Origin: Loxodes magnus
Taxonomy: Eukaryota; Ciliophora; Karyorelictea; Loxodida; Loxodidae
Length of the DNA: 64,000 bases
Direction: 5' to 3'
NCBI GenBank assembly: GCA_946699065.1
Contig: CAMPDV010000250.1
Location: 186,001-250,000 of the forward strand
The position numbers and the translations under genes were made by a program. The notes under the pieces were generated by a model. The model had not been told where the DNA came from. It searched no databases and worked only from the letters and a program-made list of their open reading frames with translations. Shown here piece after piece: positions 5,303 through 61,320 of this stretch; the stretch's first letter is position 1, and each line of letters begins with the position of its first letter.

Positions 5303-6292
5303 AAATTTTATAAATAATAATTAAAAAATGGAAGACTTTAAAAAGGGTTTCTATATCACCTCCTCAAAAAAGGAGAGGAAGGCAGAAGCAAATCTCAGAC
5401 AGTCTTCTTACACTTAACCTTAACCTTTTTCTTAATAATCTTAACAATCTGGAATATAATAGAGCAACGAAGAACTGAAACAGACTCAGAAAAGCACTCA
5501 CATACTTACTCTAACGTCGGAGGAGAAGCCTAGAAAACAGGCGTAATTTGCTTTGTACCAAGAGGTCTCAGAGCTTAATCCTTAAGGCCAGATAAGGATG
5601 GAACAGCTCATTAAAGTTGTACTAAACCTCCAGGAAGAGGTCAAAAAGCTAAGAAAGAACAATGAGAAGTTAATGCATTAACTTAACCTAGCAGAAGAAA
5701 TAGAGCAAGACTCATGTACTAGGAAAGAGAGCTAAGCGCTTTTTGAAACATATCACAAAGTCAGAATAGCTAATCCTAAAATTAGCTCCAGAAACAAACT
5801 GAAATGAATAACAGACTCGGAAAAATAGAGAGAAATTTTAAACATTAAAGAAAGAGCAAAGCGAAACGGGAGCTATAAAAATGGAAATCGAAGCCTAAAA
5901 AGAGCAAATGCATCAAGAAAAACAATTAAAAATCAAAAAAAAATGTTTCTGCTATGGAAGCGTATGACATCTTTATCGGAAGTATTGGAAATTTAAATAG
6001 GAATTAAGAAACTATTGGATAAAAAAAGTAAAAAAGAAGAAAAAAGAAGAAGCAAGAATGAAAAGAATGTATTGTAACCTGGATGATTCAATATACAAGA
6101 TCAAGATGGAACCAAGGCAAGTTAAAGGAGGGAAAACCTGGAAAATCCAAGTTTCCAATCTCTCTAAAATTGGGCGACCAGAATTTTTATATTTAATAGC
6201 ATGGAGCATGGACTACTGTCTGATGGGGTTGAAAATCCCTAAAACGAAAAACATAAATTAATTTTATTATTATTACAAAATTTTATAAATAA
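5303..6292 (+). mobile_element. ORF1-only retroelement E1 with perfect 15-bp target-site duplication
   Basis: The 15-bp sequence aaattttataaataa occurs at 5303-5317 and again at 6278-6292, directly flanking a 960-bp insertion. The paralogous spacer upstream of LRR-5 has an uninterrupted counterpart near 36030, followed by the same downstream sequence ('caagttatac' type), which is an empty site. The insert begins a few bases before an ATG and ends with a short run of TTA/ATT triplets. It carries only the zinc-knuckle ORF and no reverse transcriptase. The layout resembles half-LINE (HAL1-type) elements mobilised by a LINE enzyme supplied in trans; that mechanism is inference. Confidence 0.85.
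5328..6261 (+). pseudogene. ORF1 (coiled coil plus zinc knuckle) of element E1, frameshifted
   Basis: The reading starts at ATG 5328 with 'MEDFKKGF', the family N-terminus (compare MAGFKKGF and MAEGLKKGF in the other elements). A Gln/Ser-rich segment follows, then a heptad-like stretch ('EEVKKLRKNNEKL') near residue 115. A frame change at about 5780-5870 is needed to reach the 'MEIE' motif and the knuckle. The knuckle is imperfect: C-F-C spacing, then TGA at 5965-5967 just before His, with the last Cys replaced by Tyr. The C-terminal frame then stays open past 6261, including 'IGRPEFLYL', which parallels 'LGDPNFYF' in element E2. This looks like a decayed nucleic-acid-binding ORF1/Gag-like protein. 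Confidence 0.65.
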
Positions 6293-7296: not shown

Positions 7297-9130
7297 TCAA
7301 GTTTGAATGCTACCTTTCTCAACATTATGGATTATTGTCATCCTTACGAACTTCTATTTAAGTTAATTAGCCCATTATTCTCTTATTTACGTTCCTTTAA
7401 TATTTAAATATTTAAGATTTCTATAAAAAAGGTATTCTTATCCCTCTTAATCACAAATTGGAAAGCCTTCTTATGTAACATCCTCTGAATTATAAAGATA
7501 TAAAGATTTTAAATGCTTACAGTTTGTTACCATTTATACTATATCTTTATTATTTAGTTAAGTGTCAAAAAAATTTAATTATTTTAATTTGTTTATTTTA
7601 ACTATTTCATTTATTCAATTCTCATCTAACATTTAGCAATATTCCAAGTCTAAGATTTCTAACTCCTTACAGTTTTAACTCATAGAATGTAAAGTCTTAT
7701 TTTTTAGTTTTTTCATATCACTAAGAGATAATTTAGTTAGTTTTCTACAATTCTAAAAAATATAACATAGAGTTTCATTAGTTAGTTATTAAACAGAAAT
7801 AAATGATATTTCTTTATAATTCTATCCATAATCTCCTATTTTCTTCAAAGATGTATTAGTAAGTTTTTCCAATATGCTCAAATTAAGAGACTTTAAACTA
7901 GGACAGTTTTACATTAAAGATATAAGATGATTATCATTAAAATTATCGCAATCATAAATCTTTATATGCTATAATTTATTTCACTACTTAGAAAATAATT
8001 CTTATATTGTTTCTACTTATAATTCTCACTAAATTGTTAAATAGCTAAGGTTAAAGTTTTTTAACTTCATTATAAATTAATCTTAAGAATTTTCTATTTC
8101 ATAAGAATCAATTATGCTTAGATTAGGACATTATTCAATATACTTATCAACATCTGTATTTTGATTAATGCTTATTTCTTCTAATGAGTTTCCTTTTTAT
8201 TTCAAGTATTATAATAGCATTTCTTGATTAATTCCCTTAATAAATAATTTTAGTTCCTTTAAATTTAACCCTAAACAGTAGTCTATTAGAAATTTTCCTG
8301 TTATCTATTTTTTATTTATGTTTTAGACTTCTAAGGATTATAAATGAGTCAAGCTTTGCAAAAAACTTAAATTTTCTTACAATAAAAAGTTAATCCTTAA
8401 AACAATTTTTTTTAGATTTAAGCATTTTGCTATGTATTCTTGAAAGGTTTTATCTAAATTATTTAGTCCAATTAAATGAATTTCTTATACTAGTTTATAT
8501 CCTTTATGATTTTAATTTTAGTTCTAAGCATTTTTTTATTTCTTGTAAAATTTATTCTTACTATTTTTCTTCTTATCAATCTTAAGTATTAATATATAAT
8601 TTTTTAGTATCAGATTATAATATTTGCTTGAGAGTTCAGTTTATTTTATTTTAAACATAGTCTTTATTACTTGAATATTATTTTATTTCTAATTTTTTAT
8701 ATTAATATTTAAACTTATTAAAAAATTAACTAACTTATTGTAGTCTACTGATATCTCTTTTTTTAAGGAACTAACAAATATTTTGAAGAATATAAAAATT
8801 GGAAAATAAAGTTTATTTACTACTTTTAAACTGCTTAATACCTTATTATTCTTAAGTAAGTTATTGTTCTTAGTTTAAGTGTTCATGAATTCTCTTCATT
8901 GGAAGCGTTATTTCTTAATCTTTTTAATCTTCTATTGATTCTTTTTAATTTATTTAACTAATTTTTTATTTTTAGTCTTATGCTATATCCTTTTAAATTT
9001 GGGCTATTACTTAAGTTTCTTTAAGGTGAATATTAGATTCTTCTTATTATTGATTAGAAAAGGACTATTAGTTTGGATTATCTAGTGTATAGTTTTAGCT
9101 ACTAGTTGATTAATCAGTCCCACTTTACAT
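7297..9130 (-). pseudogene. LRR-1: F-box/LRR gene with a 5-nt deletion
   Basis: The start ATG (complement of 9128-9130) and the terminal TGA (complement of 7297-7299) correspond to those of LRR-7, but the span is 1834 bp against 1839 bp (613 codons). The 5-nt loss lies near 8512, between the 'KKCLEL' segment and the first LRRs, and shifts the frame. Everything downstream is preserved in the other register, including LRR consensus stretches such as 'NCKHLKSLYL'. Its duplicate LRR-7 lacks the deletion, so the lesion arose after the duplication or was repaired in the partner. In-frame TGAs match family positions 165, 185, 370, 385 and 507. Confidence 0.8.
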
Positions 9131-13606: not shown

Positions 13607-15424
13607 TCAAAATTATTTGTTATCTTTCTCAATATTATGTAATATTGTCATTCTTACGAACTTCTATTTAAGTTAATTAGCCCACTATTCTCTTATTTAC
13701 GTTCCTCTAATATTTAAATATTTAAGATTTCTATAGAAAGGAAATTCTTATCCTTCTTAATCACAAAATAGAAAACCTTCCTATGTAACATCTTTTGAAT
13801 ATTACAATTTTAGAACTTTTAATTATTTATATTTAGTTACAATTTGTACGATTTCTTTATTAGTAAGCTTACTTCCTTAAAAACTTAATTTTTTTAATTT
13901 ATTTATTTAAACTATTTCATCTATTCAGTTTTTATCTATGAATAAGCAATAATCCAAATCTAAACTTTCTAATTATAAATAATTTTAACTCATAGATTGT
14001 AAAGTCTTATTTTTTAGTTTTTTCATATCAATAAGAGATAATTTAGTTAGTTTTCTACACTTCTCAAATATATATTGTAGAGTTTTATTAGAAAGTTATT
14101 TAACATGACTAAGAGATATTTATTCATAGTTTTATCCATAATCTCCAATCTTTTTCAAAGCATTATTAGTAAGTTAATACAATAGAGTAAATGTAAGACT
14201 TTTCAAGTTAGGAGAGTTTTATATTAAAGATATTAGGTGATTATCATTAAAATTATAGCAATCATTAATCTCTATATATTACAAATTATTATGCTACTTA
14301 GAAAATAATTCTTATATTGTTTACATTTATAAGTTTCGATAAATTTTTAAATTACTAAGATTCAAGTTTTTTAGCTTCAATATGAATTAGTCGTAAGGAC
14401 TTTTCATTTAATACCATTCAATTTTATTTAAATTAGGACATAAATCAATATAACTATCCATATTCTCATTTTAGTTTATATTTATTTCCTTTAATAATCT
14501 TCTTTTTTTCTATAAATATTGCAATAAAGTTTCTTGATTAACTCATTTACTAAATATTTTTAGTACCTTTAAATTAAACTCTAAACAGTATTCTTATAAA
14601 AATTTTCCTGTTACCTAATTATTATTTGATACTGTGATATACAAAACTTGTAAATGAGTCAATTTTTATAAAAAGCTTAAATTTTCTTCTTATGAAAAGT
14701 TAGCCACTAAAGTTAATTTGTTTAGATTTATACATTTTGATATATAATCTTAAATAAATTTATCTATGTTTGCTAATCCAAGTAATTGAATTTCTTAAAC
14801 TAGTTAATATCCTTTTTGGTTTAGATTTAATTTTAGTTGTAATTATTTTTAAAATTCTTGCTAAATTTATTCTTCCAATTTTTCTCTATTTCAATCGTAA
14901 GTATTGATATATAAAATTTTAGTATCTGACTATAAAATTTGCTTAAGGGTTCAATTTATTTTACTTTAAACATAGTCATAATTACTTGAATATTTCTTTA
15001 TTTCTAATTTTTGAAATTAATATTTGAACTTATTAAGGAACAAGCAAACCTATTGTAGTCTACAGATGTCTCTATTTTTGAGGAACTAGCAAATGTACTA
15101 AAGAATATAAGAATTGGAAATTAAACTCTATTTACTACTTTTAATCAATTTAGCGCTTTATTATTCTTAAGCAACAACTTCTTCGTTTAAGTTTTAATGA
15201 AATCTTTTCATTGGAAGTGCTATTTCTTAAATTTATTAATCTTCTGTATATATTTCTTAATTTATTTAACTGTTCTATTATTTTTAGTCTTTTGTTATTT
15301 GAGTGTTTATTTAAATTTCTTGGATATCAGACTCTTCTTATTATTGAAAAGAAGAGGACTATTAGTTTGGATTATCTAGTGTATATTTTTAGTTACTAGT
15401 TGATTAATGAGTCCCACTTTACAT
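13607..15424 (-). CDS. LRR-2: F-box/LRR protein, frame-preserving copy (605 codons)
   Basis: The start is ATG (complement of 15422-15424) and the end is TGA (complement of 13607-13609), a span of 1818 bp or 606 codons including the terminator. The layout follows the family: polar N-terminus, F-box-like helix segment near residues 100-140, then LRRs to the C-terminus ending 'EKDNKQF'. In-frame TGAs include codon 158 (14951-14953) and codon 500 (13925-13927), aligned with codons 165 and 507 of LRR-7. At the two middle sites it has CGA and CAT instead of TGA. It is diverged from the other copies by roughly 15%, yet length and frame are kept. F-box/LRR proteins are typically substrate adaptors of SCF ubiquitin ligases. 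Confidence 0.65.
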
Positions 15425-15439
15425 TTTATTATAATTTTT

Positions 15440-16861: not shown

Positions 16862-17941
16862 ATTAATATTTCATTAAATCATTAAAATAACTGTTCGCCT
16901 TCCGACTTAATTGAAGTTTTAAATGTATAAAATCTCCTTTCCTGCATGTTCGTTCCTTGTGCTCTTTTTCCTGGACTTCTCTCTTTTTAATAGTCTGAGT
17001 TAAGAATTTTTTTTTTCAAGATTTTCCCATTTCCCGATGGGAAGAATTCCGTCGCTCGTAATTTCAGTTGCTAATAGTTAATATTACTCCAAATATTCAT
17101 TCTTATTCTTTTCTATTGGGGACATTTTCGCCATAGATGTCAAATGCTGTTGCAAATGTAACATCTTTTCCTTGCTCTAGGAAATATCTTTTCTTGTTTC
17201 TCTATTTCCATTGGAATTCCTTAAGAAGGCTTCTACAGATTTTCTTCTATTAATTTAAGTCTGGAATCTAATTTTACTCAGTTTTTCTCGTCTTGCTCTT
17301 GCATTACTCAAATATCATTCTCTAAATTTTAAATTGACTCATAGACTCCGACTTTAGCTCTTCGGTCTACCATATGGACTTCGTCATCATCTTCATGGTT
17401 TATCAGATCCTGACTTATTGTAAGCATCTCTACTTTCTGGGAATTTAATTCCTCTTCGAATTTTTTTATGTTTCTAATAAGTAGATGAATCAGCTGCTTC
17501 ATCTACTAAGAGTCCATTTGTTCTATTTCGCTGTTGTCTAAATAAAAGGTAATAGTATCTATATTAAATTATCGTACTTTACCTTCTTCGTTTATTTTTT
17601 ATTTCTTCGTTATTATTTTTATCGATTCAGTTTAGTGGTCTCTTTTTTCAGTTTTCAATGGAGGCGTTGAGAGCTGTGTCAACTTTTCTGTTCTGAATTT
17701 TTGTCTCAGTTCCTTCTTGTCCTTTGATGGAAGAAGTTCGCTTTATTTTAATTTGTAGGATTTAGTATTTTTTATTAGTTCTTCTAATTTATTTTGTTGT
17801 TTTGGTTATTTTTATTAAGAAGAGCGTTAAGTTGAAGAAGACGTGGTAAGAATATTTGCTTCTGATTTTCTCTCCTTTTCTGAGGAGGTGGTAAAAAACC
17901 CTTCTTGAAGCCAGCCATTTTATATTATTAATATTTCATTA
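16862..17941 (-). mobile_element. ORF1-only retroelement E3 with perfect 15-bp target-site duplication
   Basis: The sequence attaatatttcatta stands at 16862-16876 and 17927-17941, flanking a 1050-bp insert placed inside the conserved LRR downstream block. The LRR-5 and LRR-6 units have the block uninterrupted at the corresponding place (about 36810 and 43880). The insert carries one minus-strand ORF from a few bases inside its right end to a TGA 3 bp from its left end. There is no reverse-transcriptase domain. Duplicated at 62759-63839. Confidence 0.88.
16879..17918 (-). CDS. ORF1 of element E3: coiled coil plus CCHC zinc knuckle
   Basis: The start is ATG (complement of 17916-17918), 'MAGFKKGF'; the end is TGA (complement of 16879-16881). 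The main frame runs through Ser/Thr/Gln- and Lys-rich sequence, a coiled coil ('RNIKKFEEELNSQKVEML'), 'PMEIEKQEKIFP', then the knuckle CYIC-NSI-x-H-LWRKC, a C-x2-C-x4-H-x4-C in which x is TGA (17150-17152). Two further TGAs lie just upstream in the frame. The ATG frame must shift by -1 near codon 9 (at the run TTTTTTA) to enter this frame, and the span of 1040 bp is one short of a multiple of three. The duplicate is 1041 bp because of an extra T in a later run. Likely an RNA-binding ORF1 protein. Confidence 0.72.
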
Positions 17942-18136: not shown

Positions 18137-19966
18137 TCAAGTTTGTTTGCTACCTTTCTCGACATTATGGATTACTGTCATCCTTACGAACTTCTATTTA
18201 AGTTAATTAGCCCATTATTCACTTATTGACGTTCGTTCAATATCTAAATATTTAAGATTTCTATAAAAAGAATATTCTTATCCCTCTTAATCATAAATTG
18301 GAAAACCTTCCTATGTAACATCCTTTGATCACTTAAGTTTTAAAATTTTTAAATGTTTACAGTTAGTTACTATTTATACTATATCTTTATTATTTAGTTA
18401 AATTCATTAAAAATTTAATTATTTTAATTTGTTTATTTTAACTATTTCATTTATTCAATTCTCATCTAACATTTAGCAAAATGTCAATTCTAAGCTTTCT
18501 AACTCCATACAATTTTAGCTCATAGATTTTAAAGTCTTATTATTTAGTTTTTTCATATCCCTAAGAGATAATTTAGTTAGTTTTCTACAATTCTCAAAAA
18601 TATAGCATAGAGTTTCATTAGAAAGTTATCTAACAGAATTAAAGGATATTTTTTTATAATTTTATCCATAATCTCCTATTTTCTTCAAAGATGAACTAGT
18701 AAGTTCTTACAATAAACTCAATCTAAGAGACTTTAAACTATTACAGTTTTACATTAAAGATATTAGGTGATTATCATCAAAATTATCGCAATCATAAATC
18801 TCTATATGCTATAATTTATTTCAATACTTAGAAAATAATTCTTATATTGTTTACATTTATAAGTTTCAATAAATTGCTAAATAGCTAAGGTTAAAGTTTT
18901 TTAACTTCAATATGAAATAGTCGTAAGGGCTTTCTAATTGATAAGAGTCAATTTTATTTAAATTAGGACAAAAATCAATATACTTGTCCATATTCTTATT
19001 AGAGTTAATGTTTATTTCTTCTAACGTGCTTCCCTTTTATTACAAATATTGTATTAAAATCTCTTGATTCATTCCTTCACTAATTATTTTTAGTTCCCTT
19101 AAATTTAACCCTAAACAGTAGTCTAGTAAAAACTTTCCTTATATCTATCACTAATTTATGTCTAAGATTTCTAAGGATTATAAATGAGTCAAATTTTACA
19201 AAAAATTTAAATTTTCTTCTTAAAGATTGAAAATACTTAAAACTAATTTTTTTAGATTTGAGCATTTTGATATATATTCTTGAAAGGTTTTATGTAAATT
19301 ATTTAGTTCAAGTAAATGAATTTCTTATACTAATTTAAATCCTTTTTGAAATAAATTTAATTTTAGTTCTAAACATTTTTTTATTTATTGAAAGATTTCT
19401 TTTGCTTAATTTTCTTATTATCATTTCTAAGTATCAATATACAGAATTTTAGTATCAGATTATAAAATTTATTTGAGAGTTCAGTTTATTTTATTTTAAA
19501 CGTATTCTTTATTACTTGAATATTATTTTATTTCTAATTTTTTATATTAATATTTAAACTTATTTAGAAATTAATTAACCTATAATAGTCTACTTATGTC
19601 TCTATTTTTAAGGAACTAACAAATATTTTGAAGAATATAAGAATTAGAAAATAAAGTTTATTTACTACTTTTAAACTGCTTGGTACTTTATTATTCTTAA
19701 GACAGTTCTTCTTCTTAGTTTAAGTTTTCATGAAATCTCTTAATTGGAAGCGTTATTTCTTATTCTTACTACTTTTATATTGATATTGTTTAATTTATCA
19801 AATTGTGTTTTTGGTTTTAATCTTATGCTAAATAGTTTTGGATTTGGGCTGCTACTTAAGTTTCTTTGATAATAGATTCTTATTATTATCGATTATAAGA
19901 GGACTATTAATTTGGGCTAGCTAATGTTTAGTTTTAGTTATTAGTTGATTCACTCCCACTTTACAT
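18137..19966 (-). CDS. LRR-3: F-box/LRR protein, frame-preserving copy (609 codons)
   Basis: The ATG is the complement of 19964-19966 and the TGA the complement of 18137-18139; 1830 bp is exactly 610 codons. The start region is three codons shorter than in LRR-4 and LRR-7. TGA codons aligned with LRR-7 positions 165, 185, 370, 385 and 507 are all present (the first at 19481-19483). LRR motifs of the Cys-containing type ('NC..L..L.L') fill the second half. The plus-strand ORF-like runs here are shadows. The leader upstream has the conserved core, followed by the insertion E4 at 20037. Confidence 0.65.
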
Positions 19967-26913: not shown

Positions 26914-28752
26914 TCAAGTTTGAATGCTATCTTTCTCAACATTATGGAATATTGTCATCCTTACGAACTTCTATTTGAGTTCATACACCAATTATTCTTT
27001 TATTGACGTTCATCTAATATCTAAATATTTAAGATTTCTATAAAAAGGATATTCTTATCCCTCTTAATCACAAAGTGGAAAACCTTCCTATGTAATATCC
27101 TTTGAATTCGCAAGTTTTAAATACTTTAAATGTTTACAGTTAGTTACTATTTTTACTAAATCTTTGTTACTTAGTTCAATATAATAAAAATTTAATTATT
27201 TTAATTTTTTTATTTTAACTATTTCATCTATTCAATTCTCATCTAACATTTTGCAAAATATCAAGTCTAAACTTTCTAACTCCTTACAGTTCTAACTCAA
27301 AGATTATAAAGCCTTATTATTTAGTTTTTCCATATCCCCAAAAGATAATTTTTTTAGTTTTCTACAATTCTCAAAAATATAACATAGAGTTTTATTAGAA
27401 AGTTATATATCATAACTAAAAGATATTTTTTTATAATTCTATCCGTAATCTCCTATTTTCTTCAAAGATGTATTAGTAAGTTTATATAATGAATCTAATA
27501 TAATAGATTTTAAATTAGGACAGTTTTACATTAAAGATATAAGGTGATTATCATTAAAATTATAGCAATAATAAATCTCTATATGTTATAATTTATTATG
27601 CTACTTAGAAAATAATTCTTATATTGTTTACATTTATAAGTTTCGATAAATTTTTAAACTACTAAGGTTCAAGTTTCTTATCTTCAGTATGAATTATTCT
27701 AATTAATTTTATACTTTATAAGAGTCAATTTTGCTTAAATTAGGACATAAATCAATATAACTATCCATATTTTCATTTTAGTTTATATTTACTTCCTCTA
27801 ATGAATTTCCTTTTTTCTACAAATATTGCAATAAAATATCTTGATTAAATCCTTTACTAAATAAATTTAGTACCTTTAAATTTAAATCTAAACAGTAGTC
27901 TAGTAAAAACTTTCCTGTTATCTATTTATAACTTATGTCTTAGATTTCTAAGGATTATAAATGAGTCAAGTTTTATAAAAAACTTATATTTTCTTCTTAA
28001 AGATTGAAAGCACTTAAAACTATTTTTTTTAGATTTGAGCATTTAGAAATATATTCTTGAAAGGTTTTATCTAAATTATTTAGTTCAAGTAAATGAATTT
28101 CTTATACTAGTTTATATCCTTTTTGATGTAAATTTAATTTTAGTTCTAAGCATTTTTTTATTTATTGAAAGATTTCTTCTGCTTAATTTTGCTTTTATCA
28201 ATCATAAGTATTAATATATAAAATTTTAGTATCAGATTATAAAATTTGTTTGAGAGTTCAGTTTTTTTTATTTTAAACATAGTCTTTATTACTTGAATAT
28301 TGTTTTATTTCTAACTTTTCAAATTAATATTTAAACTTATTTAGAAATTTATTAACTTACTGTAGTCTACTTATATCGATATTTTTAAGGAACTAACAAA
28401 TATTTTGAAGAATATAAGAATTAGAAAATAAAGTTTATTTACTACTTTTAAGCTGCTTAGTACCTTATTATTCTTAAGTAAGTTATTGTTCTTAGTTTAA
28501 GTGTTCATGAATTCTCTTCATTGGAAGCGTTATTTCTTAGTCTTTTTAATCTTCTATTGATTCTTTTTAATTTATTTAACTAATTTTTTATTTTTAGTCT
28601 TAAGCTAAATGACTTTATATTTGGACTGTTGCTTAAGTTTCTTGGAGATTCTTATTAGATTCTTCTTATTATTGATCAGAAGAGGATTATTATTTTGGAT
28701 TATCTAGTGTATAGTTTTAGTTACTAGTTGATTAATCAGTGCCACTTTACAT
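26914..28752 (-). CDS. LRR-4: F-box/LRR protein, frame-preserving copy (612 codons)
   Basis: The ATG is the complement of 28750-28752 and the TGA the complement of 26914-26916; 1839 bp is 613 codons, the same as LRR-7. In-frame TGAs fall at codons 165 (28258-28260), 185 (28198-28200) and 507 (27232-27234). At codons 370 and 385, where LRR-1, LRR-3 and LRR-7 have TGA, this copy has CGA and CAT. An F-box-like segment sits at about residues 108-147 and LRRs from about 200 to 590. This copy appears to be the donor, or shares a donor, of tracts found in LRR-7 and LRR-8. The GC-rich island lies 50 bp beyond its 3' end. Confidence 0.68.
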
Positions 28753-37023: not shown

Positions 37024-38861
37024 TCAAGTTTGAATGCTACCTTTCTCAACATTATGGATTATTGTCATCCTTACGAACTTCTATTTAAATTTATTAGCCC
37101 ACTATTTATTTATTGACGTTCCTCTAATATTTAAATATTTTAGATTTCTATAAAAAGGATATTCTTATCCCTCTTAGTCGAAAATTGGAAAACCTTCCTA
37201 TGTAACATCCTTTGAATATTCAAGTTCTAAAAGATTTAAATGTTTACAGTTAGTTACTATTTATACTATATCTTTATTATTTAGTTAAGTTTCAAAAAAG
37301 TATAATTATTTTAATTTGTTTATTTTAACTATTTCATTTATTCAATTCTCATCTAAAATTTAGACATATGCCAAGTTTAAACTTTCTAACTCCTTACAGT
37401 TTTAACTCATAGATTGTAAAGTCTTATTATTTAGTTTTTTCATATCCGTAAGAGATAATTTAGTTAGTTTTCTACAATTCTCAAAAATATAACATAGAGT
37501 TTCATTAGAAAGTTATCTAACAGAATTAAAGGATATTTCTTTATAATTTTATCCATAATCTCCTATTTTCTTCAAAGATGAACTAGTAAGTTAATATAAT
37601 TAATTTAATATAAGAGACTTTAAACTAGGACAGTTTTACATTAAAGATATCAGTTGATTATCATTAAAACTATAGCAATTATAAATCTCTATATGCTATA
37701 AGGTATTATACTACTTAGAAAATAATTCTTATATTGTTTCTGCTTATAAGCTTGAAAAAATTGTTAAACTACTAAGTTTAAAGTTTTTTAACTTCAATAT
37801 GAATTAGTCGTAAGATATTTCTATATTATATTAGTTCATTTTGTTTAAATTAGGACAAAAATCAATATACTTGTTCATATCTCTATTATGGTTAATGTTT
37901 ATTTCTCCTAATGTGTTTCCTTTTTATTTCAAATATTATAATAACATTTCTTGATTAATTCCTTCACCAAATATAATTAGTTCCTTTAAATTCAATCCTT
38001 AACAATAGTGTAGCAAAAACTTTCCTGTTATCGATTCCTAATTTATGTCTTAGATTTCTAAGGATTATAAATGAGTCAAGCTTTACAAAAAATTTAAATT
38101 TTCTTCATAAAGATTAAAAACACTTAAAACAAGTTTTTTTAGATTTGAGCATTTTGAAATATATTCTTGAAAGGTTTTATCTAAATTATTTAGTTCAAGT
38201 AAATGAATTTCTTATACTAATTCAAATCCTTTTTGAAATAAATTTAATTTTAGTTCTAAGCATTTTTTTATTTATTGAAAGATTTCTTTTGCTTAATTTT
38301 CTTATTATTATTTCTAATTATCAATATACAGAATTTTAGTATCAGATTATAAAATTTGTTTGAGAGTTCAGTTTTTTTTATTTTAAACGTAGTCTTTATT
38401 ACTTGAATATTATTTTATTTCTAACTTTTCAAATTAATACTTAAACTTATTTAGAAATTTATTAACCTATTGTAATCTACAAATGTCTATATTTTTAAGG
38501 AACTAACTAATAATTTGAAGAATATAAGAATTGGAAAATAAAGTTTATTTATTACTTTTAAACTGCTAATGTTTTATTATTCTTAAGAAAACTCTTTTTC
38601 TTAGTTTAAGTGCTCGTTAATTCCCTTCATTGGAAGCGTAATATCTTAGTCTTTTTAATCTTTTATTGATTCTTTTTAATTTATCAAATTATTTTTTTAG
38701 ATTTAGTCTTAAATTAGATCCTTTTAAATTTGAGCTGTTACTTAAGTTTCTTGGAGATGTTTATTAGATTCTTCTTATTATCGATCAGAAGAGGATTAAC
38801 AATTTGAACTATTTGGTGTATAGTTTTAGCTACTAGTTGATTAATCAGTCCTGCTTTACAT
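37024..38861 (-). pseudogene. LRR-5: F-box/LRR gene with a 1-nt deletion
   Basis: The ATG is the complement of 38859-38861 and the TGA the complement of 37024-37026; the span of 1838 bp is one short of 613 codons. Comparison with LRR-4 and LRR-6 places the missing base near 38571, just before the F-box-like segment ('actgctaatg' against 'actgcttaatg'). At family codon 185 this copy has TAA where the others have TGA. At codon 370 it has TCA, and at 385 TAT. The conserved TGAs at 165 and 507 remain. Confidence 0.75.
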
Positions 38862-44100: not shown

Positions 44101-45938
44101 TCAACTCTGATTGCTACCTTTCTCAACATTATGGATTATTGTCATCCTTACGAACTTCTATTTAAGTTTATTTACCCATTATTCATTTATTGACGTTCTT
44201 CTAATATTTAAATATTTTAGATTTCTATAAAAAGGATATTCTTATCCATCTTAATCACAAAGTGGAAAGCCTTCTTATGTAACATCCTTTTATTAATAAA
44301 GATTTAATATTTTTAAATGTTTACAGTTAGTTACTATTTTTACTATATCTTTATTATTTAGTTACGTTTCATAAAAGTATAATTACTTTAATTTGTTTAT
44401 TTTAACTATTTCATCTATTCAATTCTCATCTAACATTTAGCAATATTCCAAGTCTAAACTTTCTAACTCCTTACAGTTTTAACTCATAGATTGTAAAGTC
44501 TTATTATTTAAATCTTGCATATCACTAAGAGATAATTTAGTTAGTTTTCTACAATTCTCAAAAATATAGCATAAAGTTTCATTAGAAAGTTATCTAACAT
44601 AACTAAAAGATATTTTTTTATAATTTTATCCATAATCTCCTATTTTCTTCAAAGATGTATTAGTAAGTTCATATAATGAAGTCAATATAAGAGACTTTAA
44701 ACTAGGACAGTTTTACATTAAAGATGTCAGGTGATTATCATTAAAATTATCGCAATCATCAATCTCAATACGCTATAATTTATTATGCTACTTAGAAAAT
44801 AATTCTTATATTGTTTCTTCTTATAAGTCTAACTAAATTGTTAAATAACTGAGGTTAAAGTTTTTTAACTTCAATATGAATTAGTCGTAAGGACTTTCTA
44901 ATTGATAAGAGTCAATTTTCCTTAAATTAGGACATAAGTCAATATACTTATTCATATTCTCATTATAGTTAATGTTTATTCTTCTAACAATTTTCCTTTT
45001 TATTACAAATATTATAATAACATTTCTTGATTAATTCCTTCACTAAATATAATTAGTTCCTTTAAATTTAATCCTTAACAATAGTGTAGTAAAATCTTTC
45101 CTGTTATCGATTCCTAATTTATGTCTTAGATTTCTAAGGATTATAAATGAGTCAAGCTTTACAAAAAACTTAAATTTTCTTCTTAAAAATTGTAAACACT
45201 TAAAACTAGTTTTCTTATATTTGAGCATTTTGTAATATATTCTTGAAAAGTTTGATCTAAATTATTTAGTCCAAGTAAATTAATTTCTTATATTAGTTTA
45301 TATCCTTTTTGATATAAATTTAATTTTAGTTCTAAGCATTTTTTTATTTATTGAAAGATTTCTTTTGCTTAATTTTCTTATTATCATTTCTAACTATCAA
45401 TATATAAAATTTTAGTATCAGATTATAAAATTTATTTGAGAGTTCAATTTATTTTATTTTAAACATAGCCTTTATTACTTGAATATTCTTTAATTTCTAA
45501 CTTTTCAAATTAATACTTAAACTTATTTAGAAATTTATTAACTAATTGTAATCTACAAATGTCTATACTTTTAAAGAACTAACAAATATTTTGAAGAATA
45601 TAAGAATTAGAAAATAAAGTTTATTTACTACTTTTTAACTGCTTAATGCTTTATTATTTTTAAGAAAACTCTTCTTCTTAGTTTAAGTGTTCATTAATTC
45701 TCTTCATTGGAAGCGTTATTACTTAATCTTAATACTCTTTTATTGATATTTTTTAATTTATCAAATTATTTTTTTAATTTTAATCTTATGCTAAAATGTT
45801 TTGGATTTAGGCTTCTACTTAAGTTTCTTGGAGGTGTCTATTAGATTCTTCTTATTATGTATCAGAAGAGGATTAACAATTTGAACTATTTGGAGTATAA
45901 TTTTAGCTACTAGTTGATTAATCAGTCCCACTTTACAT
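44101..45938 (-). pseudogene. LRR-6: F-box/LRR gene with a 1-nt deletion
   Basis: The ATG is the complement of 45936-45938 and the TGA the complement of 44101-44103; 1838 bp is one short of a whole number of codons. The missing base is near 44982 ('tttattcttc' against 'tttatttctt' in LRR-3 and LRR-5), in the middle of the LRR region. TGA is present at family codons 165, 185 and 507, with Leu (TTA) at 370 and His at 385. The minus-strand run at 45043-45228 is an out-of-frame piece of this gene. LRR-6 stands at the junction of the right segmental duplication, as LRR-0 does on the left. Confidence 0.72.
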
Positions 45939-49300: not shown

Positions 49301-51181
49301 AAAGGATATCTTAGTATTTAGACATAAATTAGAACCTTATCTTAGAAGTCAAATAATGGATATCTCTTAAAAGATTTAACCTAGCTTTAAGAAAACTATT
49401 CTTCTATGATAAAATGAGACAGCTCTTTGGTACAAAATTTGTAAATCGGTGTTAAAGCTAAGTTAGTTATGAAAAAAAACTAATGGAGAATCATCTTAAA
49501 TACTAAAATAAATATAAAAGTATTAAGACAAAATAGTAGAACATAAACTTAAAATCAATCCTCAAAAACTAAACTTAATGAACTGTTAAATTAGTAGTAT
49601 AAGAGTAAAGTAGATGCTAGTAAAAGTAGAAAAAGGAGAAGTAAAGAGAAAGTTTGAGAGATGGCAGAAAAGATCTTCATTTTTATTTATTTTATAAAGA
49701 ATTGATTATCTTCATCTTTATTTATTTTATAAAGACTACTTTATTATTGTTTTAAATCAGATTCTTTCTTATTTATATCTTTCCTTTCTAATTTTTTATT
49801 TATTCAAATAAGAGCTAAAAAGCCTTTTTTTCTAATTTTTATAATGATAGATATTTTCTAAAATGTATTATTTAGATAAGGAAAATAAAACAAATCTTAT
49901 ATTATATTTTTACTTTTTTGTTCCTCAGATTTCTTTACTTTGCATAGACGTTTTTAACTTATTCAGCATAAAGTATAAACAAAATTTTAAATTATTAAAA
50001 AATAAATACATCTATGATTTAAAATGGTTAACTTTACTCAAATCTTAAGTTTTTTTCATATTTCCCAACCAATATATATAACTAATCCTATATATTAAGA
50101 TTTACGTCTCTTTCCAAGTACACTAAATAATACCTACTTTTATCCTCAACAAACTGATCAAATGTCTTTTTTACCAAATAATTAAACCACAAAATTAAAC
50201 ATTCATTCTCATAAATCATTAAAATAAATAAATAATATTATAAGGCAGTTAAAATAATTTAGCTAATTAACTAAACAAAGAGTTAAAGATTTAATTATAA
50301 TAAAAGATGCTCAATTTCTTATTTAAAAAGAAAAAATCCTTGCCGTTATGGCAATTCGTCGAAATATTTATTTAAAAGAGGTTAAAAGTATTTTGCTAAA
50401 AATGAATATCTAAAATAGAAAAATAAAAAAGTTAAAAAGATAATTATTTTAAAATACTATGAATTAATCAAAGCTTTACTTCAATAACTAAGGAGAATTA
50501 AAGAACTCAAAAGTAAATCTTGAAGAGAAATAAACAAAATATTTAATAATTAACAGATATTTTTAAACTTTTTATTTAACTTTCAATCATCGAAGTTAAG
50601 TGAAATGAGAATAAAATCAATCAAGAACGCTAAAAATCTCTTTATTTTTATTATTTAAAAAATTAAAAATTAATTATTTTATTTTATTTATTCTAATTTT
50701 CATTAGTATTTCACTAAAATTAAGTCTTATTAAATATATTAAAACATATAATAAATGATTAATGTCTTAAATTTAAGATTTTATATAATCAAATCAAAAT
50801 TTGATTTAAATATTTGCTTTATAAGGAATTTTATAAAATCTTTCTACTAAGTTTTTAACTTTAAACCATTAGAAATAAATTTGATTTGAGATATTAAAAT
50901 TTTATAATATCTTACATTTAGATAAATTAATTACTAAATAAATCAACACTAAAGATATAACATTTTTATTTTAGAATATATTTGTATTTAATCAATAGTA
51001 ATATGATCGCTTAATTTAGTATAAGCATATAAAGATTAGTATATTAAAAATAGCATATAAAAATGTTAATTAATTACTTTTATTCTAAAATCTAAAGTGT
51101 ATTATGCTACTATAAATGCTATAAATTTCTTCTATCATATCGAAAGTTATTTATTTTATTAATTAGCAAAATAAGATTAAT
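49301..51181. repeat. AT-rich spacer block P (right copy)
   Basis: Duplicate of 3430-5300. It holds the same small hydrophobic plus-strand frame (49863-50048) with one changed residue, which alone is not evidence of a gene. Confidence 0.5.
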
Positions 51182-52169
51182 AAATTTTATAAATAATAAT
51201 TAAAAAATGGAAGACTTTAAAAAGGGTTTCTATATCACCTCCTCGAAAAAGGAGAGGAAGCCAGAAGCAAATCTCAGACAGTCTTCTTACACTTAACATT
51301 AACCTTTTTCTTAATAATCTTAACAACCTGGAATATAATAGAGCAACGAAGAACTGAAACAGACTCAGAAAAGCACTCACATGCTTACTCTAACGTCGGA
51401 GGAGAAGCCTAGAAAACAGGCGTAATTTGCTTTGTACCAAGAGGTCTCAGAGCTTAATCCTTAAGGCCAGATGAGCATGGAACAGCTCATTAAAGTTGTA
51501 CTAAACCTCCAGGAAGAGGTCAAAAAGCTAAGGAAGAACAATGAGAAGTTAATGCATTAATTTAACCTAGCAGAAGAAATAGAGCAAGACTCATGTCCTA
51601 GGAAAGAGAGCTAATTGCCTTTTGAAACATATCACAAAGTCAGAATAGCAATTCTAAAATTAGCTTTAGAAACAGACTGAAATTAATAACAGACTCGGAA
51701 AAATAGAGAGAAATTTTAAACATTAAAGAAAGAGCAAAGCGAAACGGGAGCTATAAAAATGGAAATCGAAGCCTAAAAAGAGCAAATGCATCAAGAAAAA
51801 CAATTAAATATCAAAAAGAAAGGTTTCTGCTATGGAAGCGTATGACATCTTTATCGGAAGTATTGGAAATTTAAATAGGAATTAAGAAACTATTGGATAA
51901 AAGAGTAAAAAAGAAGAAAAAAGAAGAAGCTATAATGAAAAGAATGTATTTTAACCTGGATGATTCAATATACAAGATCAAGATGGAACCAAGGCAAGTT
52001 AAAGGAGGGAAAACCTGGAAAATCCAAGTTTCCAATCTCTCTAAAATTGGGCGACCAGAATTTTTATATTTAATAGCATGGAGCATGGACTACTGTCTGA
52101 TGGGGTTGAAAATCCCTAAAACGAAAAACATAAATTAATTTTATTATTATTATAAAATTTTATAAATAA
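51182..52169 (+). mobile_element. ORF1-only element E1, duplicated copy
   Basis: The same 15-bp target duplication stands at 51182-51196 and 52155-52169, so the insertion predates the segmental duplication. The ORF1 relic starts at ATG 51207 and has the same frame change. The knuckle TGA is at 51843-51845. A few codons differ (for example Cys to Phe in the C-terminal 'MKRMY' segment). Confidence 0.85.
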
Positions 52170-52389
52170 ACAAGTTATACAAATATATTAGTTACTATTA
52201 TACAATCTTAATAAAATAAGAGTTTATTTAATGTTTATTCACCATTATCATCAAAAATATTTTTATATTCTATAATTAAAAGAGAAGTTTTGGACTTAAT
52301 TTGATATAATAAAGTAAGATGGGATCTTTTAAGAGATGGTAATAACTATAGCATTTATTTAAATAATTAAATAGAAATTTATAAGATAG

Positions 52390-53170
52390 AAATGGTTAAA
52401 GTGATTTGATAAGATTATTGATTAGGTTGTTCTATATAATTTTTAAGTTAATAGTTCTTAAAATTTAATTATTATTAGCGTATTTAATAAATCTATTAGA
52501 ATAAAAACTAGATAATAGCTAATTTAAACTAATTATATGTTATCAATCCTAAATAGTATCAATAAAGTTCTTTATTTTTTGTAAAAAGTGAAACTTTAAT
52601 TTATTTAAGATATTAATTTCTTATTTAGGAATATCTTATATGATAACTACCAAAGAATTTTAGACCAAATTAAAATAACTTAGTTTCATATTAAAATAAG
52701 ATATATTTTCATTTAAATTTATTAGATATTTAAACTTAATTATAACATCCTTTTATTTTATTTATTAACATAAACTTATCATTTATTGTTTCCAAACTTC
52801 TCATTTCTCGTCAATTCTCAACTAAAATTCTTTATTATATACTCTATCTGCATCTCTCCCTATCATCTCCATTCTAAGAGCAATAATTTGAAGATTATCA
52901 ACTAAATAACTATATAAAATAATGCTTTAATATCAAAAGCTAAATATTTTATTTATTATTATGCTTTACAATTCATATTTAAATAGTTATTTATTTATAT
53001 ATAACAATGGAAGCATTATTTATTATCTCTCTATTCTACTTATATTACGAACAAAGTTATGTAAAATTTATAATTTATTATATATAAAAAGTATCTTAAT
53101 AAGCTATTTTAAGTAATTTTATTTATTTAATAAATTATTTATTAAAATATAAAATTGAATATTTGTTTAC
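52390..53170. repeat. Conserved LRR downstream block D (unit of LRR-7)
   Basis: Duplicate of 6530-7290 with a small rearrangement near 52440, where 'aagttaatag' is present as in the LRR-3 unit but not in the LRR-1 unit. Confidence 0.65.
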
Positions 53171-53176
53171 TTTCTT

Positions 53177-55015
53177 TCAAGTTTGAATGCTACCTTTCTC
53201 AACATTATGGATTATTGTCATCCTTACGAACTTCTATTTAAGTTAATTAGCCCATTATTCTCTTATTTACGTTCCTTTAATATTTAAATATTTAAGATTT
53301 CTATAAAAAAGGTATTCTTATCCCTCTTAATCACAAAGTGGAAAACCTTCTTATGTAATATCCTTTTAATTCGCAAGTTTTAAATACTTTAATTGCTTAC
53401 AGTTGGTTACCATTTATACTATATCTTTATTATTTAGTTAAGTGTCAAAAAAGTCTAATTATTTTAATTTGTTTATTTTAACTATTTCATCTATTCAATT
53501 CTCATCTAAAATTTTGCAAAATAGCAAGTCTAAACTTTCTAACTCCTTACAGTTTTAACTCATAGATTGTAAAGTCATATTTTTTAGTTCTTCCATGTCC
53601 CAAAGAGATAATTTAGTAAGTTTCCTACAATTCTCAAAAATATAACATAGAGTTTCATTAGTTAGTTATTAAACAGAAATAAATGATATTTCTTTATAAT
53701 TTTATCCATAATCTCCTATTTTCTTCAAAGATGTATTAGTAAGTTTTTCCAATATGCTCAAATTAAGAGACTTTAAACTAGGACAGTTTTACATTAAAGA
53801 TATAAGATGATTATCATTAAAATTATCGCAATCATAAATCATTATATGCTATAATTTATTTCACTACTTAGAAAATAATTCTTATATTGTTTCTACTTAT
53901 AATTCTCACTAAATTGTTAAATAGCTAAGGTTAAAGTTTTTTAACTTCATTATAAATTAATCTTAAGAATTTTCTATTTCATAAGAATCAATTATGCTTA
54001 GATTAGGACATTATTCAATATACTTATCAACATCTGTATTTTGATTAATGCTTATTTCTTCTAATGAGTTTCCTTTTTATTTCAAGTATTATAATAGCAT
54101 TTCTTGATTAATTCCCTTAATAAATAATTTTAGTTCCTTTAAATTTAACCCTAAACAGTAGTCTATTAGAAATTTTCCTGTTATCTATTTTTTATTTATG
54201 TTTTAGACTTCTAAGGATTATAAATGAGTCAAGCTTTGCAAAAAACTTAAATTTTCTTACAATAAAAAGTTAATCCTTAAAACAATTTTTTTTAGATTTA
54301 AGCATTTTGCTATGTATTCTTGAAAGGTTTTATCTAAATTATTTAGTCCAATTAAATGAATTTCTTATACTAGTTTATATCCTTTATGATTTAAATTTAA
54401 TTTTAGTTCTAAGCATTTTTTTATTTCTTGTAAAATTTATTCTTACTATTTTTCTTCTTATCAATCTTAAGTATTAATATGCAAGATTTTAGTATCAGAT
54501 TATAAAATTTGTTTGAGAGTTCAGTTTGTTTTATTTAAAACATAGTCTTTATTACTTGAATATTATTTTATTTCTAATTTTTTATATTAATACTTAAACT
54601 TATTTAGAAATTAACTAACTTATTGTAGTCTACTGATATCTCTTTTTTTAAGAAACTAACAAATAATTTGAAAAATATAAGAATTAGAAAATAAAGTTTG
54701 TTTACTACTTTTAAATTGCTTAATACCTTATTATTCTTAAGTAAGTTATTGCTCTTAGTTTAAGTGTTAATGAATTCTCTTCATTGGAAGCGTTATTTCT
54801 TAGTCTTTTTAATCTTCTGTAGATATTTCTTAATTTATTTAGCTAATTTTTTATTTTTAGTCTTAAGTTAAATTCTTTTAAATTTATGCTGGTACTTAAG
54901 TTTCTTGGAGATGCTTATTAGATTCTTCTTATTATTGATAAGAAGAGGACTATTATTTTGGGCTATCTAGTGTATAGTTTTAGTTACTAGTTGATTAATC
55001 AGTCCCACTTTACAT
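53177..55015 (-). CDS. LRR-7: F-box/LRR protein, best intact copy (612 codons)
   Basis: The ATG is the complement of 55013-55015 and the terminal TGA the complement of 53177-53179; 1839 bp is exactly 613 codons. TAA/TAG are Gln throughout. Five in-frame TGAs at codons 165 (54521-54523), 185 (54461-54463), 370 (53906-53908), 385 (53861-53863) and 507 (53495-53497) lie in register. Layout: Gln/Ser-rich residues 1-105, F-box-like segment 108-147 ('ILQNICQFLKKRDISRLQ'), then LRRs ~200-590 including 'NCPSLKSLNL' and 'NCRKLTKLSL'. The terminal residues are 'EKGSIQT'. F-box/LRR proteins usually recruit substrates to SCF ubiquitin ligases. Unlike LRR-1, it lacks the 5-nt deletion. Confidence 0.72.
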
Positions 55016-55399
55016 TTTATTATAATTTTTTAATTTTATCAGACTATTTATACTTAGTTTATGAATAACGGCTATATTTATAAATAAAACTTAAGGTTTA
55101 AATAAGCATTATCATATTTATGTAACTTAATTAAATTTACTTTTTAAATTAAATAAAAGAGCTAAATTAAATGAAAAGTGTAAATGGTTTATTTAAAATT
55201 TATGAATATAAATGCTTAGAGAAATTAGATATCCTTGCTTCTCATTATTTATAATTTCATATGTATTACAGTGCAGTTATACAAATATTTAGTGTATATA
55301 TAATAGTCTCCTTAAGAAATTATAGACCAAAGACAACTTTCAAGCTTTCTAAAATAATAAGATAAACCTTGCTTATATTATTTAATAAATTTTCCTATG

Positions 55400-55806
55400 A
55401 AACTTCTTAAATTTATTATAGATTGAAACTTTCAGCTTAGTTTAGCTAGATTATTCTAGTAAGTTAGTTGTTTAGTATATGCTTTATTATATTTTACGTA
55501 TTTAGTAATTCTATTAGCATTTTTCTTTGTTGACTTCTACTTTAAAACATTTTATGTAAGTAATCAATCACTAATCATGTTCATATCTATGAAAGTTTTT
55601 ATTTCAGTAGCTTGTAAAATATGTTTCTTTATTTTACTTAAGCCAGAAACCAATTTTCTTCCTTGTCTAATAAAAGTTGGAAGATTAATAGTCATATTAT
55701 TTATATATGCTTAGAAACTAATGATTAATATGTGAAAATAGATAAGCTACTACTGATGAAGCATTTTTTGCTTAGACTTTTTTAAGCTTTATGTCTGTTA
55801 TATTAA
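55400..55806 (-). pseudogene. Family X C-terminal ORF (copy X2'), start codon lost
   Basis: Duplicate of 9523-9924. The ATG is now ATT, and the terminal TGA site differs ('cttcttaaat' against 'cttcagaaat'), so neither start nor stop is kept. The two internal TGAs are retained. Confidence 0.45.
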
Positions 55807-55998
55807 TAATTTAATATTCCTATTTTAGTTATACTATTTCATTTTCATACTTATACTTAGAAAGTTTTAAGATATTTTTAGAGTTTTGAAATAGAATAAA
55901 AATATGATAATACTAACTTACTAAAAGCTTTTTTAAAGTAATCAGTTCTTTAGAGAACAAATTTGTGAAATGCTTTATTATATAATTTAATTTTAATA

Positions 55999-56279
55999 GG
56001 GTGGACCTTGCCTCTAAAGGTTACAAGAAGAATTTCCCAAAGATGAACTAAACTCAGAAGTAAGCTTTCTTAGTGTTGGACCAGAATAATCTCCTCATCA
56101 TGGGTTGGGAATCTACTTGTAATCGTCTGCTGGCGTCTTGTGCTTTTGAGAATTATAACCCCAACCTTCCCCGTAGTTAAAAGAGAAATGCTATGGGAAT
56201 ATTGGGATTAAAAAGAAACTTAAAAATTGATTTTTTAAAGAGATGCACCCTATTGAAGGGCTACGCACTCTATAATAAC
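55999..56279 (+). mobile_element. LINE 3'-end fragment (duplicate of 10116-10396)
   Basis: Almost identical to the left copy, including the terminal 'gggctacgcactctataata' motif. Confidence 0.55.
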
Positions 56280-56574
56280 ATTTTTTTCATATTTAAGCAT
56301 GCAATTTCTTGACTCTTAATTACTGAGTTTTTATTCCTTTTAAGTTAGATTTTTTTGTTTCTTTTTTGATTTTGAAATCTTTAATTTATTAAATTAATTT
56401 CTTAACACTATGAAGAAATAAATTTCTGAAATTTAATATTTGATTTAAATGTAGAAATATTATATCTTACAAGTTTACTTAATCTATCTTTTTCGCAGAT
56501 TTGCCAGCATTCATCATTGATTTTTCCTTTTATCTTACCCCTATCTAAAACTTAATATCAACACTTAAGCTGAT

Positions 56575-56790
56575 TGAATTCTTTTTAATCAGCTAACTTT
56601 TTTTCTTACTGATTGTTTAACTTTCCATAGTTTAATTTAAATTCAAGAAGAATTTCGATAATTTTATTCGTTTTTTTCTTATAAAAATAATTCTTATTGC
56701 TATTACTATCAAGAGTAAAATCTCTTGGAATAAATGATAGAAATTACTCCTATATTCCATTTCTCAAGCCCTACAACTAACTACTTAACT
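56575..56790 (-). pseudogene. Family X segment (duplicate of 10685-10905)
   Basis: Same reading, with the conserved TGA before the Gln run. A small difference near 56575 changes one residue. Confidence 0.45.
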
Positions 56791-57103
56791 TCTTTCCCAT
56801 CTATTAATCTATTAGCTAATTTTCTTTTTTCTAGCCCTTTTATTGAATAAGGACTCTAACTATAAACGCTATGATTGTTTAATTTATGGAATACTTTTTT
56901 TTAATCTATTTCTTAGTAATTCATAGTTATTATATAGGTCTCTTTTATAGAACTATTGAAGGATAATAGCAGCTACATAAATTTCTATACAATTTTAGTT
57001 CTAATTTTTATAATAAAGTATAATTTTAATTAGATTTGAAATGCTTACAAATTGAATTCTTTTTTTAATTTAATATAAAGATAGCTTAACTATCTAAAGA
57101 CAA

Positions 57104-57292
57104 ATGAAAGAGTTAGAAAAGAAATAGATAGAGAATAGAATTCTACTGCTTTAATAAGACCTAATGATGGAGATTAACTCTAATTATTCAGATCAGGATA
57201 TAAATTTATTGGAAGAAGAATTAGAATAAATGGAAGAAAATGAGAAGATTCTGGTCAGATAAAATATTTTCCTAGAATACTTTTACTTTTGA
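57104..57292 (+). CDS. Short coiled-coil ORF (duplicate of 11221-11409)
   Basis: 62 codons from ATG to TGA 57290-57292, unchanged in length from the left copy. Confidence 0.4.
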
Positions 57293-57764
57293 TTCTCTCT
57301 TAATTTTATGGTCAACATATCAATGGTAAAACCACATAAATTAATTAATTAATTCATATTAAAATATTAAAATTTTATATAAAGCTTAATTAAATCAAAA
57401 ACTTAACTAAAGAATAATAAAAATAATTTGAAATTAAAAAATAAAAAATAAAAAATAAAAAATATTCTTCAAATTATTAAAAACTATACATTTTCACATT
57501 AAAATAGTAAATCAAAATATTGAAATAAAAGTAAATTTCTCTAAAAAAATACGAAAAAGATATAAAAAAAGATAAAAATTAAATAGGTTTTTAATAATTT
57601 ACATCTTTTTACCTTAATTTAATAATTAAGATTAGAAGCTTTCAATAATTTTAAATAAGAAAATGCGACATTAGAAAATTAAAAATCTTTAACTAAAAAT
57701 ATATCAATTAATTTCCAAAAAACAAATTAGAATACGTCGATCTCAAATTAAAATTTTCCATAGG

Positions 57765-59497: not shown

Positions 59498-61320
59498 TTA
59501 AAATTATTTGTTACCTTTCTCAATATTATGGAATATTGTCATTCTTACGAACTTCTATTTAAGTTAATTAGCCCACTATTCTCTTATTTACGTTCCTCTA
59601 ATATTTAAATATTTAAGATTTTTATAGAAAGGAAATTCTTATCCTTCTTAATCACAAAATAGAAAACCTTCCTATGTAACATCTTTTGAATATTACAATT
59701 TTAGAACTTTCAATTATTTATATTTAGTTACAATTTGTACGATTTCTTTATTAGTAAGCTTACTCCCTTAAAAACTTAATTTTTTTAATTTATTTATTTA
59801 AACTATTTCATTTATTCAGTTTTTATCTATGAATAAGCAATAATCCAAATCTAAACTTTCTAATTATAAACAATTTTAATTTATAGATTGTAAAGTCTTA
59901 TTTTTTAGTTTTTTCATTCCTTGAAGAGATAATTTAGTTAGTTTTATACACTTCTCAAATATATATTGTAGAGTTTTATTAGAAAGTTATTTAACATGAC
60001 TAAGAGATATTTATTCATAGTTTTATCCATAATCTCCAATCTTTTTCAAAGCATTATTAGTAAGTTAATACAATAGAGTAAATGTAAGACATTTCAAGTT
60101 AGGGGAGTTTTATATTAGAGCTATCAGGTTGTTATCATTAAAATTATAGCAATAATAAATCTCTATATGTTATAAATTATTTTACTACTTAGAAAATAAT
60201 TTTTATACTACTTCTGCTTATAAACTTTGAGATTAAATAAGTTTTAAATGGATAAGATCAAAGTTTCTTATCTTCAGTATGAATTATTCTAATTAATTTT
60301 ATACTTTATAAGAGTCAATTTTGTTTAAATTAGGACATAAATCAATATAACTATCCATATTTTCATTTTAGTTTATATTTACTTCCTCTAATGAATTTCC
60401 TTTTTTCTATAAATATTGCAATAAAATTTCTTGGTTAAGTCCTTTACTAAATATTTTTAGTACCTTTAAATTAAACTCTTAACAGTATTCTTATAAAAAT
60501 TTTCCTGTTACCTAATTATTATTTGATACTGTGATATGCAAAACTTGTAAATGAGTCAATTTTTATAAAAAGTTCAAATTTTCTTCTTATGAAAAGTTAG
60601 TCACTAAAGTTAATTAGTTTAGATTTATACATTTTGATATATAATCTTAAATAACTTTATCTACGTTTGTTAATCCAAGTAAATTAATTTCTTAAACTAG
60701 TTAATATCCTTTTTGGTTTAGATTTAATTTTAGTTGTAATTATTTTTAAAATTCTTGCTAAATTTATTCTTCCAATTTTTCTCTATTTCAATCGTAAGTA
60801 TTGATATATAAAATTTTAGTATCTGACTATAAAATTTGCTTAAGGGTTCAATTTAATTTACTTTAAACATAGTCATAATTACTTGAATATTCTTTATTTC
60901 TAACTTTTGAAATTAATATTTGAACCTATTAAGGAGCAAGCAAATCTATTGTAGTCTACAGATGTCTCTATTTTTGAGGAACTAGCAAATGTACTAAAGA
61001 ATATAAGAATTGGAAATTAAACTCTATTTACTACTTTTAATCAATTTAGCGCTTTATTATTCTTAAGCAACAACTTCTTCGTTTAAGTTTTAATGAAATC
61101 TTTTCATTGGAAGTGCTATTTCTTAAATTTATTAATCTTCTGTATATATTTCTTAATTTATTTAATTGTTCTATTATTTTTAGTCTTTTGCTATTTGAGT
61201 GTTTATTTAAATTTCTTGGATATCAGACTCTTCTTATTATTGATTAGAAGAGGACTATTAGTTTGGATTATCTAGTGTATAGTTTTAGTTACTAGTTGAT
61301 TAATGAGTCCCACTTTACAT
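59498..61320 (-). pseudogene. LRR-8: F-box/LRR gene with frameshift and lost stop codon
   Basis: The ATG is the complement of 61318-61320. A base is missing near 60887 ('gaatattctt' against 'gaatatttctt' in LRR-2), shifting the frame just after the F-box-like segment. The terminal TGA of LRR-2 is TAA here (complement of 59498-59500), which would be read as Gln. The frame then stays open for roughly 100 more codons. Between about 60130 and 60425 the sequence follows LRR-4 rather than LRR-2. Family codon 385 is TAA here. Confidence 0.75.

Follow-up and report, generated by a model that had tools for sequence, protein, structure and literature searches.

In-frame and terminal UGA in a leucine-rich-repeat gene family of the karyorelict ciliate Loxodes magnus

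Introduction

The genetic code in which UAA and UAG specify glutamine (Gln) and UGA serves both as a tryptophan (Trp) codon and as a stop (NCBI table 27) was described for the karyorelict Parduczia sp. by Swart et al. 2016 (PMC4967479). Seah et al. 2024 reported its use in Loxodes, where UGA is the sole stop codon and is translated as Trp if a sufficient distance separates it from the downstream poly(A) tail (PMC11441545; here and below, published work is cited from the accessible parts of the respective articles). The dual role of UGA in Loxodes is already known and settled in print for karyorelicts. In this work, we examined a 64-kb window of the Loxodes magnus genome ("the window" denotes this whole stretch, positions 186001-250000 of contig C250), and in particular LRR-7, a leucine-rich-repeat (LRR) gene on its minus strand that carries five internal in-frame TGA codons and belongs to a set of eight paralogues. 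Our analysis indicates that the window and the macronuclear genome almost certainly follow table 27, with UAA and UAG read as Gln and UGA specifying Trp within genes and terminating translation at their ends; no difference from the karyorelict code of Parduczia and Loxodes magnus was found.

Further described systems share individual features with this locus. Condylostoma magnum has the same sense meanings and a tRNA-Trp(CCA) with a 4-bp anticodon stem, and its UGA additionally encodes selenocysteine (Sec), as it also does in Parduczia; it differs in that UAA, UAG and UGA are all inferred to act as stops too (PMC4967479, PMC13092985). Blastocrithidia nonstop likewise reads UGA as Trp, possesses a 4-bp-stem tRNA-Trp(CCA) and carries a change at Ser70 of eRF1, whereas UAR encodes Glu and UAA is the stop codon, and the eRF1 residue is changed to Gly and not, as in Loxodes, to Ala (PMC12153298). 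For Loxodes itself, a short anticodon stem of tRNA-Trp has already been published, and the Loxodes magnus genome is known to be rich in long interspersed nuclear elements (LINEs; PMC11441545). Clustered LRR paralogues among LINE fragments have also been reported from pericentromeric regions of Tetrahymena, although the code differs and the genes are arrays of 90-bp exons, compared with one long uninterrupted frame in Loxodes (PMC6564038).

The karyorelict code was here recovered from raw, repeat-rich sequence, and eRF1, tRNAs and housekeeping genes from this assembly confirm it. A genome in which one codon has two opposite meanings is relevant to the question of how ribosomes separate stop from sense. 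In practice, gene finders set to the standard or the Tetrahymena code would truncate such genes in the Loxodes genome or miss them altogether.

Results and discussion

The LRR-7 frame and its paralogues

LRR-7 (53177..55015, minus strand) consists of 612 codons followed by a terminal TGA and matches Pfam family PF24758 (E 4.1e-9). With TAA and TAG translated as Gln, all 612 codons are open, including 57 in-frame TAA and eight TAG codons, and TGA occurs internally at codons 165, 185, 370, 385 and 507 and finally at codon 613. These are the five positions named in an earlier sequence-only reading of the window, which had left the strand unstated; codon 613 is the terminal TGA. Translation of the plus strand of 53177-55015 was unlike an LRR protein, and a search of viral contigs with LRR-7 revealed no relative.

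Nucleotide alignment of the eight window copies, every one on the minus strand, bore out the further claim that codons 165 (54521..54523) and 507 (53495..53497) are TGA in all of them, and the neighbours of codon 165 vary synonymously as had been described (AAC or AAT before, ACT or ACC after). Both positions were also TGA in all ten further copies, which were read at two short stretches each and are located elsewhere on C250 (two copies) and on eight other contigs (one each). Codon 185 (54461..54463) is TGA in seven of the eight window copies, with TAA in LRR-5, and in nine of the ten further copies, with TTA in the remaining one, while codons 370 (53906..53908) and 385 (53861..53863) are TGA in three window copies each, the others having His, Tyr or Gln at codon 385. 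Inspection by eye places codon 507 at a hydrophobic position of the LRR unit, occupied by Leu or Ile in neighbouring units. TGAs confined to a single paralogue occur at codons 276, 301, 524, 549 and 581, and codon 588 is TGG in seven of the eight copies.

A search of the whole assembly (705,730,643 bases, 7843 contigs) with LRR-7 returned 2959 candidates, the best 72 of which were scored. These 72 all cover at least codons 3-572 with 66-89% identity, and each contains 2-7 in-frame TGAs; LRR-7 and LRR-4 are among them, and the match of LRR-7 to itself reached 89% identity, presumably owing to the stop penalty. The family thus comprises at least 72 near full-length copies, many of them on the window contig. 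Conservation of TGA in eight of eight copies is unremarkable when taken alone, since such columns also arise out of frame (two in the coding frame versus four and three in the other two frames); weight comes instead from selection, the ten further copies and the housekeeping genes.

Selection across the internal TGAs

Because AT-biased mutation produces TGA from TGG in dead genes as well, so that conservation is indecisive, a codon model was fitted to the tree of the eight LRR copies (MG94-type with transition bias, own script; midpoint root, two inner nodes poorly supported at 45 and 51). Columns were excluded if any copy had TGA there or if they held more than four gaps; 438 of the 447 columns of codons 166-612 were retained. 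On internal branches, this region gave a ratio of nonsynonymous to synonymous rates (omega) of 0.441, with a log-likelihood (lnL) of -4895.96 versus -4912.27 at omega 1 (twice the difference, 32.6). The stem separating LRR-2 and LRR-8 from the rest gave 0.372 (lnL -4895.05 versus -4908.05 at omega 1), and constraint was found both for codons 186-506 (omega 0.506; lnL -3639.61 versus -3647.94) and for codons 508-612 (omega 0.328; lnL -1025.86 versus -1031.63). In the control frames +1 and +2, internal omega was 1.46 and 1.53, and the values for the three reverse frames were 1.10, 2.32 and 0.705. The TGAs at codons 165, 185 and 507 occur in both groups divided by the stem, which means that translation passed through them during the period of selection. 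We conclude that purifying selection acted downstream of codon 165 along the internal branches of the family, and that inherited nonsense mutations fail to account for these codons.

Beyond the terminal TGA, none of the three frames of the 3' flank differed from neutrality (omega 1.19 in the same frame, 0.82 and 1.07 in the others), a weak control because four copies align poorly there (51-55% identity). With constraint undetected past codon 613 (53177..53179), TGA acts as a sense codon at position 165 and as the terminator at 613.

Internal UGA in housekeeping genes

The sequence-only reading had held that its claim would fall if housekeeping genes of the same assembly lacked internal TGA; such codons do occur, at Trp sites, in tyrosyl-tRNA synthetase (TyrRS), mitochondrial tryptophanyl-tRNA synthetase (TrpRS) and several members of the actin family. 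The TyrRS gene (L051, contig C83) contains a single TGA, in the context YLIEI-UGA-KAAGM, opposite Trp in the best-aligned stretch of all five chains shown, within the motif Y[LF]IE[IV]-W-K. The mitochondrial TrpRS gene (L052, contig C25) also has a single TGA, which lies opposite Trp in the mitochondrial TrpRS 5ekd.

Actin (PF00022) gave 96 genome matches, from which 13 loci were aligned (L073, L076 and 11 others) and 12 tallied, L076 being omitted for its similarity to L073. The loci were mostly chosen for the presence of TGA or for full length, and the tallies consequently show where TGA falls and not how frequent it is. Seven of the 11 TGAs fall in columns with a Trp majority (Fisher p 3.2e-12); the 47 Trp cells hold 29 TGG, seven TGA and 11 other codons, and TGG and TGA interchange across the family at residues 81, 88 and 342 of L073. 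Among the 96 matches, 43 of at least 450 bits, near-identical by score, are TGA-free, and the two that were read (L073 and L076) have TGG at the Trp sites. Full-length TGA-free matches lie on contigs such as C266, C437, C524, C707 and C711.

TAA and TAG are present inside the TyrRS, TrpRS and actin-family matches as they are in LRR-7, and it is this in-frame occurrence, not a column-wise match to Gln, that speaks for their assignment to Gln.

Gene ends and alternative codes

The codon at the expected end of the gene is TGA in seven of the eight LRR copies and in ten of 13 actin-family frames, whose ends were set from homologous C-termini, and by eye also in TyrRS and two TrpRS-like genes. This distribution bears on the Condylostoma code (NCBI table 28), which has identical sense meanings and in which UAA and UAG terminate too. 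TAA does stand at the expected end of LRR-8 and of two of the 13 actin-family frames (L086 and L089), as that code would allow, while the remaining actin-family frame, L084, has CAG there and a TGA four codons later. Given the prevalence of TGA at the ends, we consider table 28 very improbable. Table 27 is associated with avoidance of coding UGA over the final ~20 codons. The internal TGA nearest to a stop lies 32 codons before it (codon 581 of LRR-4), and the last Trp of actin is never TGA, although the numbers behind both observations are too small to carry weight.

Several observations weigh against a reading of UGA as Trp within genes. At codons 165 and 507, none of the 18 LRR copies has TGG in place of TGA, and several of the singleton TGAs stand for Gly, Lys or Glu, as decay would also give. 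In the conserved genes, the TyrRS column is Leu where two double-domain chains align through their degenerate second half, the mitochondrial TrpRS TGA lies opposite Phe in the other four of the five chains shown, which are near-identical bacterial ones, and the remaining four of the 11 actin-family TGAs fall in columns of Gln, Gly, Val and Tyr (loci L079, L081 and L085). On the terminal branches of the LRR tree, omega was 0.83 and indistinguishable from 1 (1.1 log units), which, together with frameshifting deletions in four of the eight copies, suggests that several window copies may be dead. A milder point is the reverse frame with omega 0.705, for which fixing omega at 1 lowers the fit by 2.9 log units (twice the log-likelihood difference, 5.9).

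Part of this evidence would suit a Tetrahymena-type code (table 6), in which UGA is a stop only and the internal TGAs are nonsense codons in co-copied germline pseudogenes that arose from TGG by AT-biased drift. The window has a GC content of about 22%, its combination of LRR and LINE sequences is reminiscent of Tetrahymena, half of its LRR copies are frameshifted, and singleton TGAs occur at Gly, Lys and Glu sites. Against it stand the purifying selection downstream of a TGA that was already present in the common ancestor, the in-frame TGA in each of the 72 scored family members (the best of 2959) and the Trp-site TGAs in TyrRS, TrpRS and the actin family; functional genes free of in-frame UGA, as table 6 implies, are not what TyrRS and the actin family present. 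The failure to find Tetrahymena breakage and telomere motifs in the 64 kb also speaks against it, weakly. On these grounds, a Tetrahymena-type code is hardly credible, and the preference of the sequence-only reading for the karyorelict code over it was upheld by the Trp-site TGAs of the conserved genes and by selection across the LRR TGAs. UGA as sense for another residue, such as Cys in a Euplotes-like code, or for Sec is equally implausible: the genome does contain three tRNA-Sec(UCA) genes that score over the cut-off, but the TGA columns of conserved genes are mostly Trp and in no case Cys, and Sec, which requires a selenocysteine insertion sequence (SECIS) element and is used in few proteins, would not account for 2-7 TGAs per scored LRR copy.

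The explanation we favour is table 27, with UGA as Trp in TyrRS, TrpRS, the actin family and the selected LRR frames and as stop at the gene ends. In this view, the LRR array consists of copies, some of them decaying now, that belong to a large family still functional during its spread.

Candidate decoding components

A tRNA-Trp(UCA), which the sequence-only reading had expected, was not found with one exact tRNA pattern (14 genome hits, none of them a tRNA), a narrow search that missed three tRNA-Sec(UCA) genes and could miss divergent genes; tRNA-Trp(CCA) genes with a 4-bp anticodon stem were seen instead. A tRNA-Trp pattern with up to three mismatches matched the genome 130 times, compared with no match for the reversed pattern, and all 100 matches listed carry the anticodon CCA. 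We read 103 of the 130, comprising 47 full copies and one truncated copy on contig C67, 53 on C148 and two single genes on C110. The copies on C67 (482299-491370) and C148 (155440-168963) form tandem arrays (L055-L057) with periods of approximately 187 and 241 bp. In all 100 full array copies, position 27 (A or T) cannot pair with the C at position 43, which leaves a 4-bp anticodon stem, whereas the two single genes on C110 have a 5-bp stem. The 27:43 mismatch in combination with a CCA anticodon makes the array tRNAs predicted UGA decoders. Within the window, neither Rfam at the gathering threshold nor ARAGORN detected any tRNA or other RNA gene.

Two eRF1 genes on contig C196 (L091, which was aligned, and L092, compared by eye) differ from human eRF1 in TASNIKS, which reads RAQNIKS, in Ser70, which is Ala, and in YLCDNKF, which reads FLCENTF. 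The best-scoring of the three eRF1_1 matches, L090, appeared pelota-like by eye and was excluded. In Blastocrithidia, the change of eRF1 Ser70 to Gly has been linked to UGA readthrough (PMC12153298), and Swart et al. 2016 found single eRF1 changes without a simple link to codes (PMC4967479).

About 100 tandem 4-bp-stem tRNA-Trp(CCA) genes against two with a 5-bp stem among the 103 read, together with Ala70 of eRF1, may tilt UGA towards Trp; such a tilt would prevail everywhere but beside the poly(A) tail. That the capture of UGA depends on tRNA dosage as well as on tRNA shape is a tentative idea, which we regard as possible but doubtful. UGA may also have a third meaning, as suggested by the three tRNA-Sec(UCA) genes that exceed the Rfam cut-off (L113-L115; one on contig C30 and two on C6). 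In the open-licence literature, supplements being outside the scope, we found no description of the tRNA-Trp arrays, of the dosage idea or of the Loxodes LRR family, and the terms 'tRNA' and 'leucine-rich' do not occur in the main text of PMC11441545.

Other features of the window

The other LRR paralogues, again all on the minus strand, comprise three copies without frameshift, LRR-2 (13607..15424), LRR-3 (18137..19966) and LRR-4 (26914..28752), and four frameshifted ones: LRR-1 (7297..9130) has a 5-nt deletion at codon 207, and single nucleotides are deleted in LRR-5 (37024..38861) at codon 99, in LRR-6 (44101..45938) at codon 320 and in LRR-8 (59498..61320) at codon 151. The remaining indels are multiples of three. 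The TAA that replaces the terminal TGA of LRR-8 is located at 59498-59500, and no in-frame TGA follows within 50 codons. Shortly downstream of LRR-4, a comparatively GC-rich segment (around 26790-26865) resembles the edge of an interspersed repeat.

LINE copies in the window were treated as supporting evidence only. As the sequence-only reading had claimed for the zinc knuckle of open reading frame 1 (ORF1), TGA directly precedes His in two elements and is replaced by TTC (Phe) in a third, element C. In element A (17140..17142, minus strand; second copy 63038-63040) all CCHC ligands are present and the frame appears shifted near its start by eye, while the knuckle of element B (5965..5967, plus strand; second copy 51843-51845) is degenerate, with two of the four metal ligands lost in the 5.9-kb copy and three in the 51.8-kb copy. 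A further TGA lies shortly upstream in both elements, at seemingly equivalent places by eye. The LINE reverse transcriptase sites at 24225 and 31149-31151 do hold an in-frame TGA by eye, as had been noted; as evidence for Trp they count for little, the copies being degenerate. The YADD-like site reads TGA-Pro-Asp-Asp in a degenerate copy and was left unused. Segments 1800-11500 and 11600-16000 of the window are duplicated at 47700-57400 and 57480-61900, respectively (limits approximate), and contain both LRR and LINE ORF1 copies; the three ORF1 pairs are 97.3-99.8% identical.
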